Assembly: GCA_019752535.1 (NCBI GenBank)
Contig: JAIEMA010000050.1
Location: 1-61,979, forward strand
DNA: 61,979 bases
From: Bacteriovoracaceae bacterium
GTDB taxonomy: Bacteria > Bdellovibrionota > Bacteriovoracia > Bacteriovoracales > Bacteriovoracaceae
Direction of reading: 5' to 3'
Part shown: positions 30,567 through 56,799 of the stretch, in pieces
How positions within the stretch are numbered: position 1 is the first letter of the stretch
How the letters are laid out: the number at the start of each line of letters is the position of its first letter
The notes under the pieces: generated by a model
Seen by the model: the letters and a program-made list of their open reading frames with translations, nothing else
The model's database searches: none
What the model was told of the DNA's origin: nothing
Translations under genes and position numbers: made by a program

Positions 30567-30827
30567 ATGAAAATTTTATTATTCGCTCTTTTGTATATTG
30601 GAAGCTTCCCACTTTTCGCCGCGACTAGAGTCGAAACACAAACTCAGGGATATGGCGGAAACGAATATCTCGCTTGTTTGAGTGCTCAGTCTGAAGCCAT
30701 GCGGAAACTTCAGGACCTTTGTCCTTATCAAAATTTAGAAAATTTAAATTATTCAGAGTGTTCTTTTGAAAGCGAGGGGGATTATTTTGTCATCGTTTCC
30801 ATTAAAGTCTCTGCGGAGTGTATTTAA
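30567..30827 (+). CDS. Small secreted Cys protein, 86 residues
   Basis: It has a signal peptide (MKILLFALLYIGSFPLFA) and AAGGAG before the ATG. The mature part of about 68 residues has four Cys residues and ends in SAEC plus one residue. It loosely resembles another 86-residue secreted protein at 37848-38108, which has the same length, an Ala-rich helix before a Cys, and a C-terminal hydrophobic strand ending in Cys. The function is unknown. Confidence 0.7.
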   Translation: MKILLFALLYIGSFPLFAATRVETQTQGYGGNEYLACLSAQSEAMRKLQDLCPYQNLENLNYSECSFESEGDYFVIVSIKVSAECI

Positions 30828-30860: not shown

Positions 30861-30887
30861 AAAAAAAGCCTCCCATAGGGAGGCTTT
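30861..30887. terminator. Bidirectional terminator
   Basis: AAAGCCTCCC (30865-30874), loop ATA, GGGAGGCTTT (30878-30887). On the minus strand it is followed by a U run (seven A on the plus strand, 30861-30867), which would end the structured RNA. On the plus strand a downstream T run would end the small secreted-protein transcript. Confidence 0.88.
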
Positions 30888-31025
30888 AGAATTTTTTTGG
30901 TTGCCTCTGTACTGAGGTAAGGATTACATATACTTACCTTACCTCAGGAGTACAAAGGTAGTAACCCTCTTGTTACCTCCCGAAACTTGGAATTCTTCGG
31001 GAAGCCAGAGGTATAATCTCGGCTA
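30861..31025 (-). ncRNA. Predicted ECF-controlled structured small RNA
   Basis: About 165 nt from a predicted start near 31025 to the terminator at 30861. Four helices form a cloverleaf-like four-way junction. The closing stem is CCTCTG/CAGAGG (30904-30909 with 31006-31011). There are hairpins at 30909-30953 (long arms GTACTGAGGTAAGG and CCTTACCTCA...GTAC, one small bulge), 30956-30978 (GGTA...TAAC with GTTACC) and 30978-31002 (TCCCGAA/TTCGGGA). No open reading frame, tRNA anticodon loop or known riboswitch pattern was recognised. The promoter in front matches five others in the window that precede protein genes. Expression is not proven. Confidence 0.6.
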
Positions 31026-31031
31026 ATTGTA

Positions 31032-31060
31032 TATAACGTCCCAGTTAAGACATTTGTGAC
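31032..31060 (-). promoter_or_regulatory. ECF-type promoter (site 1) in front of the structured RNA
   Basis: On the minus strand, GTCACA (plus-strand TGTGAC at 31055-31060), 16 nt, then CGTTATA (TATAACG at 31032-31038). It has the same elements and spacing as the sites at 37748, 38963, 41842, 43445 and 52817. Confidence 0.72.
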
Positions 31061-31097
31061 AAGAACGAAAAATATTTTTTTTCCTTGAACAAGCCTT

Positions 31098-31122: not shown

Positions 31123-31167
31123 TTTAGGTCCTAAAAATGTTACTTTTTAGAACCAAACAGACCTAAA
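31123..31167 (+). promoter_or_regulatory. Nested leader hairpin that covers the multicopper oxidase ribosome site
   Basis: Outer stem TTTAGGTC/GACCTAAA (31123-31130 with 31160-31167) encloses inner stem CTAAAAA/TTTTTAG (31131-31137 with 31144-31150). The right arm shares bases with the AAAGG ribosome site (31165-31169), so folding could limit translation of the gene starting at 31176. Confidence 0.5.
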
Positions 31168-31175
31168 GGTATTCT

Positions 31176-33845
31176 ATGAAAAAGTACTTGCTAACGATGC
31201 TGTTTCTTTCAATCTCAAACGCTCTTCTAGCGAATGTTTATATCGATCCATCCATACGTCCCTGTGACCCGGATGTTGAATCTCAGTGGCTTTACACTCC
31301 TACTCCTGTTGAGGCTCCTGGGAGTCCTAAAATGCTCCACCGCTGTGATGGGAAGGTTAAAGTTTTCGAGGTAACCGCAGGAATAGTAATGTCCACTTTT
31401 GACAACAGCTATGAACCGGGTCCTGTCTACACATGGGGATACAACGGCAGCAATCCTGGCCCCGTCATGGAATTCCTTGAAGGAGAAACTATTCGGATTA
31501 TTTTTAAGAATGAACTTCCCGAGCCAACTGTGCTCCACTATCACGGCCTTGAAGTTCCATTTAATCAGGACGGTGCCGAAGGCCACAGCCAGATCTCTGT
31601 AAAGCCCGGAGAGACTTTTGTCTATGAATTTCAAGTAAACCAGCACGGTACATTCATGTATCACTCAGGCCAAAACCTTGCGAAGCAACTCTCTATGGGA
31701 CTAGTGGGATTCCTGATTGTCCACCCTAGGGCCGTTCCGGAAACTTTAGTTGATCATGATTTCCTTTATTTTCTTCAAATGTACTCAATCCCTCCGCACA
31801 GCATTTTCCCTGACGTAATGGAAATGATGATGTTTAACTACTTCACTTTTAACGGTAAAGTCTCTCCTTATACGCCATCTCCACTCACTTACGTCGGGCA
31901 GAAGGCAAGAATTAGATTTGCAAATATGTCCATGATGGAACACCCCGTTCACTTACATGGCCACACCTGGCGAGTTGTTGCCACAGGCGCTGGAGACAAT
32001 CCTAGGAGTACTCATACTTATGGAAACACGATTCTTGTGCCAACATCTCAAACAATGGATGTGATCATTGATGAAATCGATACTCCAGGGGAATGGATGT
32101 TCCATTGCCATCTTCCACACCACGTTACTAACAATATGGATGTCGATATTATCCCCGGCGAACCGATGTACATGGGCAATGGAGGGATGCATGCTGTTTT
32201 CAAAGTCTACAAAGGACCTAATGATCCTGGTTATGTAAATCCTAACGTAGGTCATGAAGGTGAGACTGGTGGATCACATGGTGGAAGTCACGGAGGCGGG
32301 CACGACGGTATGTCGGCTCCCAAAATTACTACTTATGATGGCCAGCTTAAGCTTTCGAATGGTGCACGATTCGATATCTCGCTCGAACTCTACAAAGCTC
32401 AAGAGGATAAAGAGTGGCGAAAGGCAAAAGCGTTTTTAAAGCTATACCTCAACCGCGATGAATTCGTTGTCTTCCACTATGATCAGGTCAAATACAACTT
32501 TGAAACAAGTCTTTTAAGCCTTGAAGGAGATGAAAAGGCCCTCACTCTGGCGAATCTTATGTTCATGGAAAATGATGACATGGGAATGTTAACAGGCGAA
32601 GCAAGTGTGGACTTTGGGGCCATCTCTGGCGAGGTATCTCTCACAATCCGTGATGAAGAAATGACTGAGATGCGCTTGAAGAATGATCTTAGTATTTCGG
32701 GAGAATTCGAAGGGACATGTAATTCTAAAAAACAGAGCTTGCAAATCATATCTGCTCGAAGCATGAATAACACTGAGGCTCAAGGTAACAATCCACTTGC
32801 TAGTTTTGCCCTTTATGGAACGCTCGGAAACGAAGAGAGACTAGGCATCCAAGTCTCATCTGCCATCACAGAAGGCCTATACAATCCATTTAAGCAGAGC
32901 TTACGTCTTCAATTGAACACAGCAGGTAACAGGTCAACTCTTCTGTGTGACACCATATTAAAGAGCAATAAGATTACTGACCTCAAATGCAACAATGGCT
33001 GTCAGTATTCAAAGAAATCCAGCATTGTGACAAATAATCTTAGACCGGCCATCAAACCTATCTTTGTTTCCGACGAGGCACCAATCATTACGCAGCTTAC
33101 TGAAGATAAAGACGTTTCCGGTCTGTTCCAGGGAGCTTTGAGACTTGCAAGAAACAACGAAATCATTCCGATGAACTTAAAAATTGTGGCAAAGAGATAT
33201 GCTACGAACTCAATGGTGATTACTCAAAACCATATCTCCGGAACTGTTGAACTCATGCTTTCCGAGAAGATGCCAATGACTTTCAAGCTAAAAGAGAGAA
33301 CTTTTCTTGATTCCTCCTCAGTAGTGAATAAAGGGAAAAACCTCCTTGAATTCTTAACAACTCAGAAGCTATCCCTTGTGATCACAAGATGGTCAAAGGA
33401 TATGATCTTCGGCGAGGCCTACCACGAGGACTTTGGTTTCCTCGGTGAATTTGCGACGAAGCGAGGCTTAAAAGCTTTGTCTGAAATCATAGGAAATATC
33501 GAAGATGTCCGCATAACTGCAAAACTAGACGGTGAGTTTAATGATCCGAACTGGACAATTCAGATCAACTCCGCCGAAGTAGAAGAGGGTGCCGGGCCAG
33601 GAATTTACTCTCCCCTTCATTTGAAGGGACGACTTGTGAACTCTTCTGGTGCGATGACAGTAAACTTCGTTTCAGGCTCCTACGATTTTGCCTTGGGCAC
33701 ATTCTATCTTCGTACAGATGACGACCGAATTCTCAAGGGTAGTATAAGCGGAAATGAGTTAGAGCTCTTACTCGTTTCTCGAACAGAAAGACGATCAAGC
33801 TATCTCAATCTTGCAACCTCTAAACTTAAAATGAAGAGAAAATAG
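31176..33845 (+). CDS. Multicopper oxidase with a large C-terminal region of unknown fold
   Basis: 889 residues with a signal peptide (MKKYLLTMLFLSISNALLA). Residues about 40-340 form a cupredoxin multicopper oxidase: HYHG, then YHSG, HPVHLHGH and HCHLPHHVTNNM, the last two giving the type 1 and trinuclear-site ligands. In the second motif the usual HxH appears as HSG, so one type 3 copper ligand seems missing. A His/Gly-rich linker (HGGSHGGGHDGM, near residue 370) leads into about 500 residues of repeated beta-type segments that I cannot assign. Copper oxidation or detoxification in the periplasm is likely. It lies three bases before an outer-membrane channel gene. Confidence 0.83.
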   Translation: MKKYLLTMLFLSISNALLANVYIDPSIRPCDPDVESQWLYTPTPVEAPGSPKMLHRCDGKVKVFEVTAGIVMSTFDNSYEPGPVYTWGYNGSNPGPVMEFLEGETIRIIFKNELPEPTVLHYHGLEVPFNQDGAEGHSQISVKPGETFVYEFQVNQHGTFMYHSGQNLAKQLSMGLVGFLIVHPRAVPETLVDHDFLYFLQMYSIPPHSIFPDVMEMMMFNYFTFNGKVSPYTPSPLTYVGQKARIRFANMSMMEHPVHLHGHTWRVVATGAGDNPRSTHTYGNTILVPTSQTMDVIIDEIDTPGEWMFHCHLPHHVTNNMDVDIIPGEPMYMGNGGMHAVFKVYKGPNDPGYVNPNVGHEGETGGSHGGSHGGGHDGMSAPKITTYDGQLKLSNGARFDISLELYKAQEDKEWRKAKAFLKLYLNRDEFVVFHYDQVKYNFETSLLSLEGDEKALTLANLMFMENDDMGMLTGEASVDFGAISGEVSLTIRDEEMTEMRLKNDLSISGEFEGTCNSKKQSLQIISARSMNNTEAQGNNPLASFALYGTLGNEERLGIQVSSAITEGLYNPFKQSLRLQLNTAGNRSTLLCDTILKSNKITDLKCNNGCQYSKKSSIVTNNLRPAIKPIFVSDEAPIITQLTEDKDVSGLFQGALRLARNNEIIPMNLKIVAKRYATNSMVITQNHISGTVELMLSEKMPMTFKLKERTFLDSSSVVNKGKNLLEFLTTQKLSLVITRWSKDMIFGEAYHEDFGFLGEFATKRGLKALSEIIGNIEDVRITAKLDGEFNDPNWTIQINSAEVEEGAGPGIYSPLHLKGRLVNSSGAMTVNFVSGSYDFALGTFYLRTDDDRILKGSISGNELELLLVSRTERRSSYLNLATSKLKMKRK

Positions 33846-41890: not shown

Positions 41891-42418
41891 TCATTTTATT
41901 TTATTAGCCTTCAATCTGTGCTCACCAATGCGGAGAAGTAAAACTGATAACAAAACAGCCGTAACATACCAGGCCAAATGGAACGAAACTGTGTAATGAG
42001 AAATATCTCCAGGCGCATAGTACTTGCCAATCATTCCCATGAAAAATAGGGCAGAGACCCATGGAAATGTGACTCTGTATTTATGGGCAATGATACATTT
42101 TTCTTCAAAGGCATTTAAGAAAATCATTGATGATAGATTTCCACCCGCCATAAAAACAGATGCGCAAAAAACCCCACACCAAAAAGGACCAAAATCCATA
42201 ATGTAGTGAAGTACGCCTAGCTCTCCTCCAACTGGTCCAAAACCGTACTGAGGACATATCATCATTGTAATAAGCGCCCCTAAAATATTGGTCAAATAAA
42301 ATTTAAAAATGACTTTTTTAGGATTATGACAGATCTCGATATACTTTAGCGTACTTTCGTAAAGAGAAGTTGGAACTTTCTCTTCCGAACTAAGGAAATC
42401 AGAAAAATCATCTTTCAT
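41891..42418 (-). CDS. Four-helix membrane protein, likely anti-sigma partner of ECF factor 1
   Basis: 175 residues. A soluble N-terminus (about 40 residues) is followed by four membrane segments. CPQYGFGPVGGELGVLHYI and the later LAWYVTAVLL match in place the CPQFGVGLPEGHGITHIL and HIVWITSALL segments of the protein at 45278-45817, so the two are paralogs. It overlaps the sigma gene by eleven bases, the usual coupling of anti-sigma genes. No ZAS motif was seen. The anti-sigma role is inferred from context. Confidence 0.62.
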   Translation of the reverse strand: MKDDFSDFLSSEEKVPTSLYESTLKYIEICHNPKKVIFKFYLTNILGALITMMICPQYGFGPVGGELGVLHYIMDFGPFWCGVFCASVFMAGGNLSSMIFLNAFEEKCIIAHKYRVTFPWVSALFFMGMIGKYYAPGDISHYTVSFHLAWYVTAVLLSVLLLRIGEHRLKANKIK

Positions 42419-42917
42419 GAGATTCTCCTTTTTTTAAAATGTTAATGGCCCTGCTTAACCTCTTTCTCAAAGATACCTCACTCATCTTGTAGCGGTCAGA
42501 TAGCTCCTTATAGGAAAGGCCTTCGTTAAAATATTCTTTTATCAGTTTTGAAGAATCTGGTGAGAGCTTACTTACAATTTCATCAAATCTATCGCCTGAT
42601 ATGGTTTCAAGGTTAAATGAAATTCTTTCAAGCATTCTCTTCTCGACTTTTTCATCACGATAAAAATCGATCACGATGTTTCTTAACAAAACGTACAACC
42701 AGAGCACAAAGGGTTGGTTTCCCCACATATTTTTCTTTTCCACTATTTTGACAAAACAGTCTTGAAAAAGGTCGTCCACTCTGTCCGAAGGAACTCTTTT
42801 CTTTAAATAAGACCATACTTTGTTCGCGTGTCTTTCATATAATGCCACAAGTGCAGAAGGATCTCCCTGTTGGAGGGCTTTCATGAGATCTTCATCTGAA
42901 CACTTGGTGGTCTTCAT
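42408..42917 (-). CDS. ECF sigma factor 1
   Basis: 169 residues. Region 2 has the helix DALYERHANKVWSYL-like segment (here VALYERHANKVWSYLKKR), DDLFQDCFVKI and FVLWLYVLLRNIVIDFYR. Region 4 has SYKELSDRYKMSEVSLRKRLSRA, the HTH that reads the -35. It lies six bases after a heme-binding protein gene whose promoter carries the TGTCAC/CGTTATA motif, so it may drive its own synthesis. It forms a pair with the membrane protein downstream. Confidence 0.88.
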   Translation of the reverse strand: MKTTKCSDEDLMKALQQGDPSALVALYERHANKVWSYLKKRVPSDRVDDLFQDCFVKIVEKKNMWGNQPFVLWLYVLLRNIVIDFYRDEKVEKRMLERISFNLETISGDRFDEIVSKLSPDSSKLIKEYFNEGLSYKELSDRYKMSEVSLRKRLSRAINILKKGESHER

Positions 42918-42923
42918 AGAATT

Positions 42924-43415
42924 TTATTGTCCCGCATTTTTTTTCGCTTTCAATTTCGCGAGAGATGACTTTGACCAACTCATTACATTTTGTTTTTCTA
43001 GCGCGGTTAACTTCGAATTTTTGGTAAAAAGAGAATAATACCAGGGAGGCATTTCGTCCCTTTCAGTGACTTTAATTATTGCCTCTATGTCTTTAATAGG
43101 ACCCCCATGGCCTTTGAAGGGGAAATCATTTGTCATATCGATGTGAGACCGACCATCTTTGATATGGAAATCCATGATTCGCCCCACTACGGGAACTTTG
43201 TGATACCAAGGATAATTTGTTTGTGATGAATGACAGTTAAAACATTTAGCCACAAAAATTGGTCGAATTTCCTTTTTGTAACTTTCTTTAATTTCAGTAG
43301 AGATGTCCTTCTCAGGGACCTCTAGCCTCTTCTCCTCCGCCCCATGATGTTTTTTTCCATGGGAGAACGCGGAAGAGGAAACGAAGAGGAAAGAAATTAA
43401 AATCGCAATCTTCAT
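42924..43415 (-). CDS. Secreted heme-binding-domain protein with CxxCH
   Basis: 163 residues with a signal peptide (MKIAILISFLFVSSSAFS) and a His-rich start (HGKKHHG). CFNCHSSQTNYPWY, GRIMDFHIKDGR and DEMPPWYYSLF match the heme-binding-domain family (cytochrome-like, one c-type heme). It is the first gene of the sigma/anti-sigma operon and could be a sensor or target. An ECF-type promoter lies 30 bases upstream. Confidence 0.85.
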   Translation of the reverse strand: MKIAILISFLFVSSSAFSHGKKHHGAEEKRLEVPEKDISTEIKESYKKEIRPIFVAKCFNCHSSQTNYPWYHKVPVVGRIMDFHIKDGRSHIDMTNDFPFKGHGGPIKDIEAIIKVTERDEMPPWYYSLFTKNSKLTALEKQNVMSWSKSSLAKLKAKKNAGQ

Positions 43416-44780: not shown

Positions 44781-45281
44781 ATGAAAGATGAATATCTAAT
44801 GACTCTTTACAAGGATGGAGATCACCATGCCTTTTCGAGAATATATGAGAAGTATGCCCCAATGGTTTATGGGTATCTAAGTAAACGCTTGTCCAAGAAT
44901 GAGGTTGAAGACGCTTATCAAAATGTTTGGAGACAGCTCCATGAGAAACGCGATCTCTATGCAAGCCAACCGTTTGCTCCTTGGTTCTTTGTTTTAATTA
45001 AGAACCTATTGATTGACCAATACAGACAGGAAGGGCGGAAGACCGCTTACTTAAAAATGCTTGAGACTAGGGATAGTGAGATCAATGAATCTGTTCCGGT
45101 AGATCTTCAAGCTCTTTTAGCAACGCTCCCTAGAGATTCAAAAGAAATGATTCAGAAGTACTATCTTGAAGGTTATAGTTACGAAGATCTAGAAAAAGAG
45201 TCAGGATTGTCACAAGTAGGCCTTCGTAAACGTTTATCTAGAGCAGTTTCTCAATTGAGAAAGCTCGGAGGTAGAGAATGA
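44781..45281 (+). CDS. ECF sigma factor 2
   Basis: 166 residues. Region 2 includes FSRIYEKYAPMVYGYLSKR, DAYQNVWRQLHEKRDLYASQ and FAPWFFVLIKNLLIDQYRQ. Region 4 has SYEDLEKESGLSQVGLRKRLSRA. It is clearly paralogous to the factor at 42408-42917 and is followed by a membrane protein paralogous to that factor's partner. Its own promoter region (44700-44780) shows no TGTCAC/CGTTATA pair. The ribosome site is weak. Confidence 0.9.
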   Translation: MKDEYLMTLYKDGDHHAFSRIYEKYAPMVYGYLSKRLSKNEVEDAYQNVWRQLHEKRDLYASQPFAPWFFVLIKNLLIDQYRQEGRKTAYLKMLETRDSEINESVPVDLQALLATLPRDSKEMIQKYYLEGYSYEDLEKESGLSQVGLRKRLSRAVSQLRKLGGRE

Positions 45282-52816: not shown

Positions 52817-52844
52817 TATAACGGTTGAGATTAGATTTTGTGAC
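52817..52844 (-). promoter_or_regulatory. ECF-type promoter (site 6) of the CusCBA-like operon
   Basis: Minus-strand GTCACA, 15 nt, CGTTATA (plus TATAACG at 52817-52823, TGTGAC at 52839-52844). The spacer is one base shorter than in the other five. Confidence 0.7.
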
Positions 52845-55152: not shown

Positions 55153-55266
55153 CTATTTAGTGTCTTTCACCTGATAACCAGCGTCTTCAATGACGCGTTT
55201 TACTTCTTCTTCAATATGCTGAACACAACTCATACAACCCATCTGTTCAATTTTGAATTTATACAT
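55153..55266 (-). CDS. Mini-HMA metal-binding protein (37 residues)
   Basis: The product begins [20 protein letters not shown] and ends [11 protein letters not shown]. The metal site M-G-C-M-S-C is that of HMA copper chaperones, and VIEDAGYQV is their last helix and strand. The middle of a normal 65-70 residue HMA domain is absent, so it keeps the first strand, CxxC helix and last helix/strand only. AGGAG lies just before the ATG. It sits between a CueR-like operator and the copA-like gene, so it may be a compact copper chaperone or a decayed one. Confidence 0.68.
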
Positions 55267-55413: not shown

Positions 55414-55474
55414 TAACTTAAGACCCCGTGCTCCTTTTCATCAAAAAATTAGAAAATAAATTAGGGAGTAAAGT

Positions 55475-55767
55475 ATGAGCGGAACAAAAAACGTCAAAGA
55501 AATCAAAGAACCAACTCGTAGGTATTATACAGCCGAGCAAAAAATCAGAATCGTGCTTGAAGGTCTGCGTGGAGAGATCACCGTCGCCACTTTTTCGCCG
55601 CCAAGGAATCAATCCCAAATGTAACCTACAACAAGTGGTCAAAAGATTTTTGGGATGCAGGAAAGAATGATCCTACTCTTGAAACCAAAAGAAATGCGAC
55701 TAGCGAAGAAGTAATACTTCTTAAAGAGCAAAATATTGATCTTCGTCGAGCTGTTTCATGGCCTTGA
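55475..55767 (+). pseudogene. IS3-family transposase OrfA remnant, frameshifted
   Basis: From the ATG at 55475 the frame reads YTAEQKIRIVLEGLRGEITV, the HTH start of IS3-type OrfA. It then runs into a stop at about 55624. The expected continuation appears in two other frames, RRQGINP followed by NVTYNKWSKDFWDAGKND, then EVILLKEQN, to a stop at 55765-55767. Two frameshifts therefore break the gene, and no OrfB was seen. The end lies against a ppsA fragment, so the element probably inserted there and decayed. Confidence 0.82.
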
Positions 55768-55939
55768 TAAAATATCTATAGGCATCCGCTGTTATCGCGA
55801 ATCCGTTAGGAACATTCACACCTTTTCCACGAAGTTCCCTCACCATCTCGCCTAAAGAGGCATTTTTGCCACCAACCCGCGGGACATCTTTCAATGAAAG
55901 GTCTTCAAACCATAATATATATTTTTGATGTAATTCCAC
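55721..55939 (-). pseudogene. ppsA: 5' fragment of phosphoenolpyruvate synthase
   Basis: 72 residues from a GTG. YILWFEDLSLKDVPRVGGKN and ASLGEMVRELRGKGVNVPNG with FAITADAYRYF are the N-terminus of PEP synthase (usual length about 790). The similarity stops near residue 60 and the frame ends in the IS remnant, so the rest of the gene is lost. The fragment overlaps the transposase remnant on the opposite strand by about 47 bases. Confidence 0.85.
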
Positions 55940-55969
55940 GATTAAAATCCTATTGAATTGAGATGGATA

Positions 55970-56302
55970 TTATTTTTCCACGAAAGTTGATTCCGAAAAT
56001 TTGACACCTGCATCGAATTTAACGACAGAATAATGTTCATTCAGAATTTTTGTGACTGTCCCATGACCAAGCTTAGTTTTTATACAAGGAGTCCCAGCCC
56101 CTCTTGAGTCACCTACATTTTTACTTTGGCAGTCGTTGTAAAAAGCAACTACCCTATCACCTACTCTTACTTCATCTTTATTCAAGCATACATGAGCCTC
56201 ATGCTCACTAGTTTTCATGGCGACGGTCCCCCTCATCGTAGAATGATGGGCACATCCATACATGGTTAACATGGAGAATAAGGCGATATAGCAAAATTTC
56301 AT
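55970..56302 (-). CDS. Small lipoprotein, new three-member family (copy B)
   Basis: 110 residues with a lipobox (LTMYGC). It has STMRGTVAMKTSEHE, HVCLNKDEVRVGD, FYNDC, TPCIKTKLGHGTVTKI and LNEHYSVVKF, each in the same place as in the copies at 41482 and 56467. The last residues (FSESTFVEK) diverge. Together with copy C it sits next to the copper ATPase and the MgtC-type gene. The function is unknown. Confidence 0.72.
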   Translation of the reverse strand: MKFCYIALFSMLTMYGCAHHSTMRGTVAMKTSEHEAHVCLNKDEVRVGDRVVAFYNDCQSKNVGDSRGAGTPCIKTKLGHGTVTKILNEHYSVVKFDAGVKFSESTFVEK

Positions 56303-56466: not shown

Positions 56467-56799
56467 TTATTTTTTAATTTTGATAATATTGCCTTCTTCA
56501 AACTTAAAATTTGAAATCGTCTGGAATTTGGCATAGTGCTCATTCAACATATTAGTGAGCTTCACTTCACCAATTTTTTTAGATTCACATCCACTGCTGA
56601 TGTCTTTAAGCACATAATCCTTGTTGCATTGCGTGTTAAAAACATCAAATTCTTCACCCGCCTTCACGACGGGATCAACACAAGCCACACCATGTGACTC
56701 ATCAATTTTCATAGCAATAGTGCCTTTCATACGAGAATGGTTCTCGGTAGAGCATGAAGCGAAAAGGGCAAGTATACTTATCACGATAAATAACTTCAT
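56467..56799 (-). CDS. Small lipoprotein, new three-member family (copy C)
   Basis: 110 residues with a lipobox (LFASC). SRMKGTIAMKIDESHGVAC, GEEFDVFNTQC, ISSGCESKKIGEVKLTNMLNE, HYAKF and FEEGNIIKI are shared with copy A, which it resembles more than copy B. A stem-loop (AGAGGCGA with TCACCTCT, one mismatch) lies at 56446-56464 just past the stop but has no U run on this strand. Confidence 0.72.
   Translation of the reverse strand: MKLFIVISILALFASCSTENHSRMKGTIAMKIDESHGVACVDPVVKAGEEFDVFNTQCNKDYVLKDISSGCESKKIGEVKLTNMLNEHYAKFQTISNFKFEEGNIIKIKK

Follow-up and report, generated by a model that had tools for sequence, protein, structure and literature searches.

The window analysed here is the whole 61,979-nucleotide stretch (62 kb) of contig JAIEMA010000050.1 from a Bacteriovoracaceae bacterium, in which genes for copper handling are found together with an ECF sigma factor gene. 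The segment of interest lies between a gene at 30567-30827, which is convergent to it, and a divergent multicopper oxidase gene (31176-33845, plus strand) with an NCBIfam copper_res_A/CueO-like match below the cut-off. The oxidase leader contains a nested hairpin of its own (31123-31167, plus strand; TTTAGGTC...GACCTAAA, with inner arms CTAAAAA/TTTTTAG), which adjoins the ribosome-binding site and may be an operator or a translational control element. Further along, the ECF sigma factor gene (42408-42917, minus strand; TIGR02937) is overlapped by a gene for a hydrophobic protein (41891-42418, minus strand); this protein had no match in Pfam or NCBIfam and presumably serves as anti-sigma factor. 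A pump of the CusA/CzcA family and a CusB-like adaptor are the products of the operon behind position 52844, and genes for a multicopper oxidase and a CopA-like ATPase lie close by. A small unlisted ORF adjoining the CopA-like ATPase gene (55160-55265, minus strand) looks, when read by eye, like a CopZ-type copper chaperone. Fragments found among the copper genes at 55418-55940 were judged by eye to be an old insertion scar, comprising a transposase-like short ORF (55475-55624, plus strand) and a second, truncated ORF (55721-55939, minus strand) that looks similar to the N-terminal part of a pyruvate phosphate dikinase/PEP synthase. Additionally, a family of small lipoproteins is found around the copper loci (55970-56302 and 56467-56799 in the window, and several genes on contigs C30 and C4), in which the lipobox cysteine is followed by H-S-x-M-[KR]-G-[ST]-[IV]-A-M-K, and some of these genes lie behind ECF-type sites.

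One promoter motif recurs across the regulon. Within the window, only the minus strand carries the pattern GTCACA-N15/16-CGTTAT, at exactly six sites (31060, 37776, 38991, 41870, 43473 and 52844). This confirms the original prediction of six ECF-type promoters, the first of them without a protein gene. Genome-wide, 12 perfect copies were found versus two for the reversed-pattern control. In 11 of these 12, a protein-gene start lies within a few tens of bases downstream, the six sites outside the window each preceding a protein gene, and the products are largely exported or copper-handling proteins, which often begin with a signal or lipoprotein leader. Only the site at 31060 has no protein gene downstream. 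A position weight matrix (PWM) scan of the copper loci returned 19 hits above 14 bits, while two Markov-shuffled sets gave 0 and 2, a difference that reflects the compactness of the motif rather than independent proof, given that the matrix was trained on the same promoter sites. For site 43473, the start in question belongs to a haem-binding protein gene that ends at 43415. Since the sigma factor gene follows this gene in the operon preceded by site 43473, the sigma operon is apparently autoregulated and the 42408-42917 product is the likely cognate factor of the motif. The window has another ECF gene (44781-45281), which no GTCACA-CGTTAT site precedes. From the genes of the regulon, copper is the presumptive signal.

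The promoter at 31060 (31033-31060, minus strand) is composed of a -35 GTCACA element at 31060-31055, a 16-nt spacer and a -10 CGTTAT element at 31038-31033, and with 30.0 bits in the PWM scan it ranks near the top of the set. An A/T tract upstream of the -35 element (31064-31090, minus strand) could act as an UP-like element. From the spacing, transcription is predicted to start near 31026 on the minus strand and to yield a small noncoding RNA of about 165 nt (30861-31026, minus strand), in which no ORF starting with ATG, GTG or TTG extends beyond a few codons. Two weaker ECF-like sites were considered as starts of further RNA genes and both were rejected, since the site at 4487 on contig C30b precedes a protein gene and that at 56056 in the window lies within a coding gene.

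The folding of this RNA is exceptional. The transcript from about 31026 to 30861 reached -65.5 kcal/mol with a z-score of -6.45, and none of 200 shuffled sequences folded as well. Because a terminator alone can yield such a score, the RNA body was also scored without it, and it ranked first among the 1,769 scanning windows of 140 nt that covered both strands of the whole 62-kb window (z -5.81). The same DNA folded less strongly when read on the plus strand (scan score -3.83 versus -5.81), which favours the minus strand as the RNA strand. The 3′ end is formed by an intrinsic terminator with a U-run (30861-30887, minus strand), as originally claimed, with a 10-bp stem containing six G-C pairs and a 3-nt loop, whose pairs have probabilities of about 1 apart from the outermost. 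This element is T-rich on the plus strand too and may be bidirectional, and it could serve, or belong to, the convergent gene at 30567-30827; therefore, the terminator alone is no proof of a minus-strand RNA.

The pair probabilities altered the architecture first proposed for the RNA, which was that of four helices in about 165 nt meeting in a cloverleaf-like junction. No helix closes the array, so the cloverleaf was rejected in favour of a linear array of hairpins, of which the terminator, the long hairpin 4 and the core of hairpin 2 are firm. Hairpin 4 (30904-30958, minus strand) has exact 11-nt arms and a 14-nt open loop, UAAGUAUAUGUAAU, and its pairs have probabilities of 0.98-1.0 except near a bulge. 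In hairpin 2 (30976-31004, minus strand), the core at about 31002-30978 has pair probabilities near 1, and an outer extension to 31011/30966 reaches about 0.7. The other two helices, hairpin 1 (31003-31024, minus strand) and hairpin 3 (30960-30977, minus strand), compete with this extension and are minor alternatives with pair probabilities of only about 0.3. Between hairpin 4 and the terminator lies an open A-rich linker (30888-30903, minus strand) with unpaired probabilities of about 0.7-1.

The RNA matched no Rfam family at the gathering threshold, 6S RNA and riboswitches included, and nothing convincing appeared at a relaxed threshold, where the best sub-threshold matches rest on the terminator. 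In the same way, blastn over 98 relatives with the terminator included matched only generic terminators. When the terminator was left out, blastn over 129 genomes of the family found the RNA only in its own genome, where it is single copy, which rejects a dispersed repeat. A covariance model built on this one sequence likewise found nothing elsewhere in these 129 genomes beyond matches that were weak and of poor structure. Searches of plasmids and phages for the RNA, and of viral contigs for its hairpin pattern, gave no match. No homologue by which covariation could prove the predicted structure was found in these searches. Of four same-genus genomes, one gave a distant match to the oxidase and the other three gave none, so the absence of the RNA there says little. 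The closest relatives of the oxidase are found in a Bacteriovoracaceae MAG (56%), a Halobacteriovorax MAG (51-53%) and an Oligoflexia MAG (38%); the RNA is absent beside all three, and the promoter motif is not enriched in the genomes of the first two. Overall, no such RNA was found in the regions beside the oxidase relatives examined (the C30 paralogue, G053, G049, G071, L137 and L139).

A second, paralogous copper/ECF region is present in the same genome (G000) on contig C30, at about 15900-42000 (L121, L122), with a multicopper oxidase 73% identical and an ECF sigma factor 52% identical to those of the window, and with several GTCACA-CGTTAT sites. At its oxidase locus the flank aligns, an A/T tract lies at the matching place and a weakened promoter is kept (CGTTAA, 11.1 bits versus 30.0 at 31060), but at the position of the RNA body the similarity does not exceed that of shuffled sequence. 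The pattern of lost stems beside kept flanks, which the original prediction had named as refuting it, is thus found in this paralogue of the same genome; no orthologous locus was found. From this comparison, the RNA does not belong to the old, fixed elements of the oxidase region, although a paralogue such as C30, unlike an orthologue, does not allow the stems to be judged. At the corresponding place C30 carries a second ECF-type promoter and the gene of a small Cys/His-rich protein, and this arrangement, together with the lack of any homologue of the RNA, is compatible with the 31060 site being an ECF promoter that has lost the gene once downstream of it, with the terminated transcript as a by-product without a function of its own. 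However, a random leftover would hardly outrank every other stretch of the 62 kb in folding significance, and its promoter is one of the strongest of its set while the C30 counterpart has decayed; this explanation, the best surviving of the alternatives, is considered unlikely.

The genome (97.5% complete) and 58 relatives were also searched for the RNA chaperone Hfq, which was found in none of these 59 Bdellovibrionota genomes, while control genomes were positive. Therefore, no standard chaperone route is available to the RNA, and an Hfq-dependent sRNA was rejected as a description of it. CsrA is encoded in the genome, which, with the great stability and mostly paired state of the RNA and the failure to find Hfq, is compatible with a structured RNA whose partner is a protein or ligand, bound for titration or storage, instead of an mRNA. 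A precedent is known from a related predator group, since merRNA of Bdellovibrio bacteriovorus, an attack-phase RNA with a c-di-GMP riboswitch that has been proposed to hold c-di-GMP, is likewise a lineage-restricted, intergenic, structured RNA without a downstream gene, and lineage-specific sRNAs have been reported in Bdellovibrio (PMC3627812). Unlike merRNA, the RNA described here matches no riboswitch or other Rfam family, and both of its GGA triplets lie inside helices, which rejects a CsrA sponge of the CsrB/RsmY type, in which several GGA motifs would be open in loops. Protein or ligand binding is accordingly rated somewhat below the by-product explanation and is regarded as improbable, and the protein titration first suggested as a possible role has lost its CsrA form.

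The other suggested role, action in trans on mRNAs, stayed plausible, but no target emerged when five open segments of the RNA were scanned against 123 start regions of the copper loci, in which nothing exceeded the range of shuffled controls. The best predicted pairing with the oxidase leader reached -11.2 kcal/mol, and several unrelated genes gave stronger values. This result also weighs against a local role, in which the RNA or its transcription would affect the promoter or leader of the divergent oxidase gene. The divergent layout, with 116 nt from the -35 element to the oxidase start codon, and the hairpin beside the ribosome-binding site of the leader could accommodate such control, yet the RNA and the oxidase gene do not overlap and the C30 oxidase paralogue does without the RNA, so that local regulation appears quite unlikely. 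Less probable still, and very unlikely, is that the structured RNA itself binds copper or a copper-related ligand or protein, as a lineage-specific sponge or sensor arm of an Hfq-less copper ECF regulon.

The preferred reading is that of a stand-alone sRNA gene of the copper ECF regulon, copper-induced and acting by pairing in trans without Hfq, to which we assign a probability of about 0.55 on the basis of anatomy and precedent rather than of an identified target. Weighing against it are the missing homologues, the C30 locus that lacks the RNA, the possible ownership of the terminator by the convergent gene, the empty target scan and the failure to find Hfq. That the RNA gene is real, as a predicted new small regulatory RNA, is the more secure part and is held to be probable. 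In this sRNA reading, copper would cause the presumed anti-sigma factor in the membrane to release the ECF sigma factor, and the freed sigma would activate the promoters of the Cus-type pump, lipoprotein and haem/cytochrome genes as well as the minus-strand site at 31060. RNA polymerase would then transcribe the noncoding RNA of about 165 nt and stop at the hairpin and U-run of 30887-30861. The hairpins would protect the RNA, leaving the 5′ end, the 14-nt loop of the long hairpin and the A-rich linker open, and the RNA would most likely pair in trans with mRNAs, free of Hfq, and lower products unwanted in copper stress. The promoter motif with its recurrence in the regulon, the lack of an ORF, the exceptional folding, the terminator and the copper-handling neighbours are shown by the analysis, and from them we infer its transcription, the copper signal, its base-pairing action and its targets. 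The original proposal of an undescribed sRNA serving as the RNA arm of the ECF regulon thus survives as the best reading of a noncoding, folded and terminated RNA that has a regulon promoter and no Rfam match, with the cloverleaf removed from it.

Pairing in trans is favoured because the RNA anatomy is joined by a close precedent of design, the copper-responsive ECF sigma factor SigAb of Acinetobacter baumannii. SigAb recognizes a -35 GTCAAC and a -10 CGTT element with a 17-bp spacer, 16 bp being tolerated; it is autoregulated, is accompanied by linked anti-sigma genes and directly activates transcription of the sRNA SabS, and cells become copper sensitive when SabS is knocked down (PMC12153292). 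Both systems have a noncoding RNA behind a metal-stress ECF promoter, the two promoters being much alike in sequence and each preceded by an A/T tract, and share an autoregulated sigma operon, a linked anti-sigma gene (presumed here) and Cus-type pumps in the response (PMC12153292). However, the pumps are mostly regulated indirectly by SigAb, and SabS was shown experimentally (PMC12153292), whereas here the pump operon carries the motif itself, the RNA is predicted and Hfq was not found. The likeness is one of design. The copper-dependent CorE factors of Myxococcus also govern an ECF copper-homeostasis regulon with a multicopper oxidase and a P-type ATPase, but they carry a Cys-rich domain at the C-terminus and lack a linked anti-sigma factor, and the portion of that publication drawn on here reports no sRNA in the regulon (PMC3107203). 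A CorE-type factor was rejected for the window, as the 42408-42917 protein ends soon after region 4, without a Cys-rich domain, and a presumed anti-sigma gene is adjacent. An sRNA arm of an ECF regulon is also known from the RpoE-dependent RybB, MicA and MicL of E. coli, although the RpoE -35 element, GGAACTT, differs and no Rfam sequence match links them to the RNA described here. RybB, MicA and MicL act with Hfq.

The predicted RNA is a new case of an already known class, that of ECF-regulon sRNAs, and a lineage-specific one. If this is true, it would represent, after SigAb/SabS, the second lineage with its own sRNA in a copper-responsive ECF regulon, in a group in which Hfq was not found, and it could be used to test the independent gain of sRNA arms by ECF regulons and the action of sRNAs without Hfq in Bdellovibrionota. 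The analysis also supplies a list of roughly twelve promoters that a single copper ECF sigma factor would use, and the failure to find Hfq in the 59 Bdellovibrionota genomes bears on sRNA action across the phylum.
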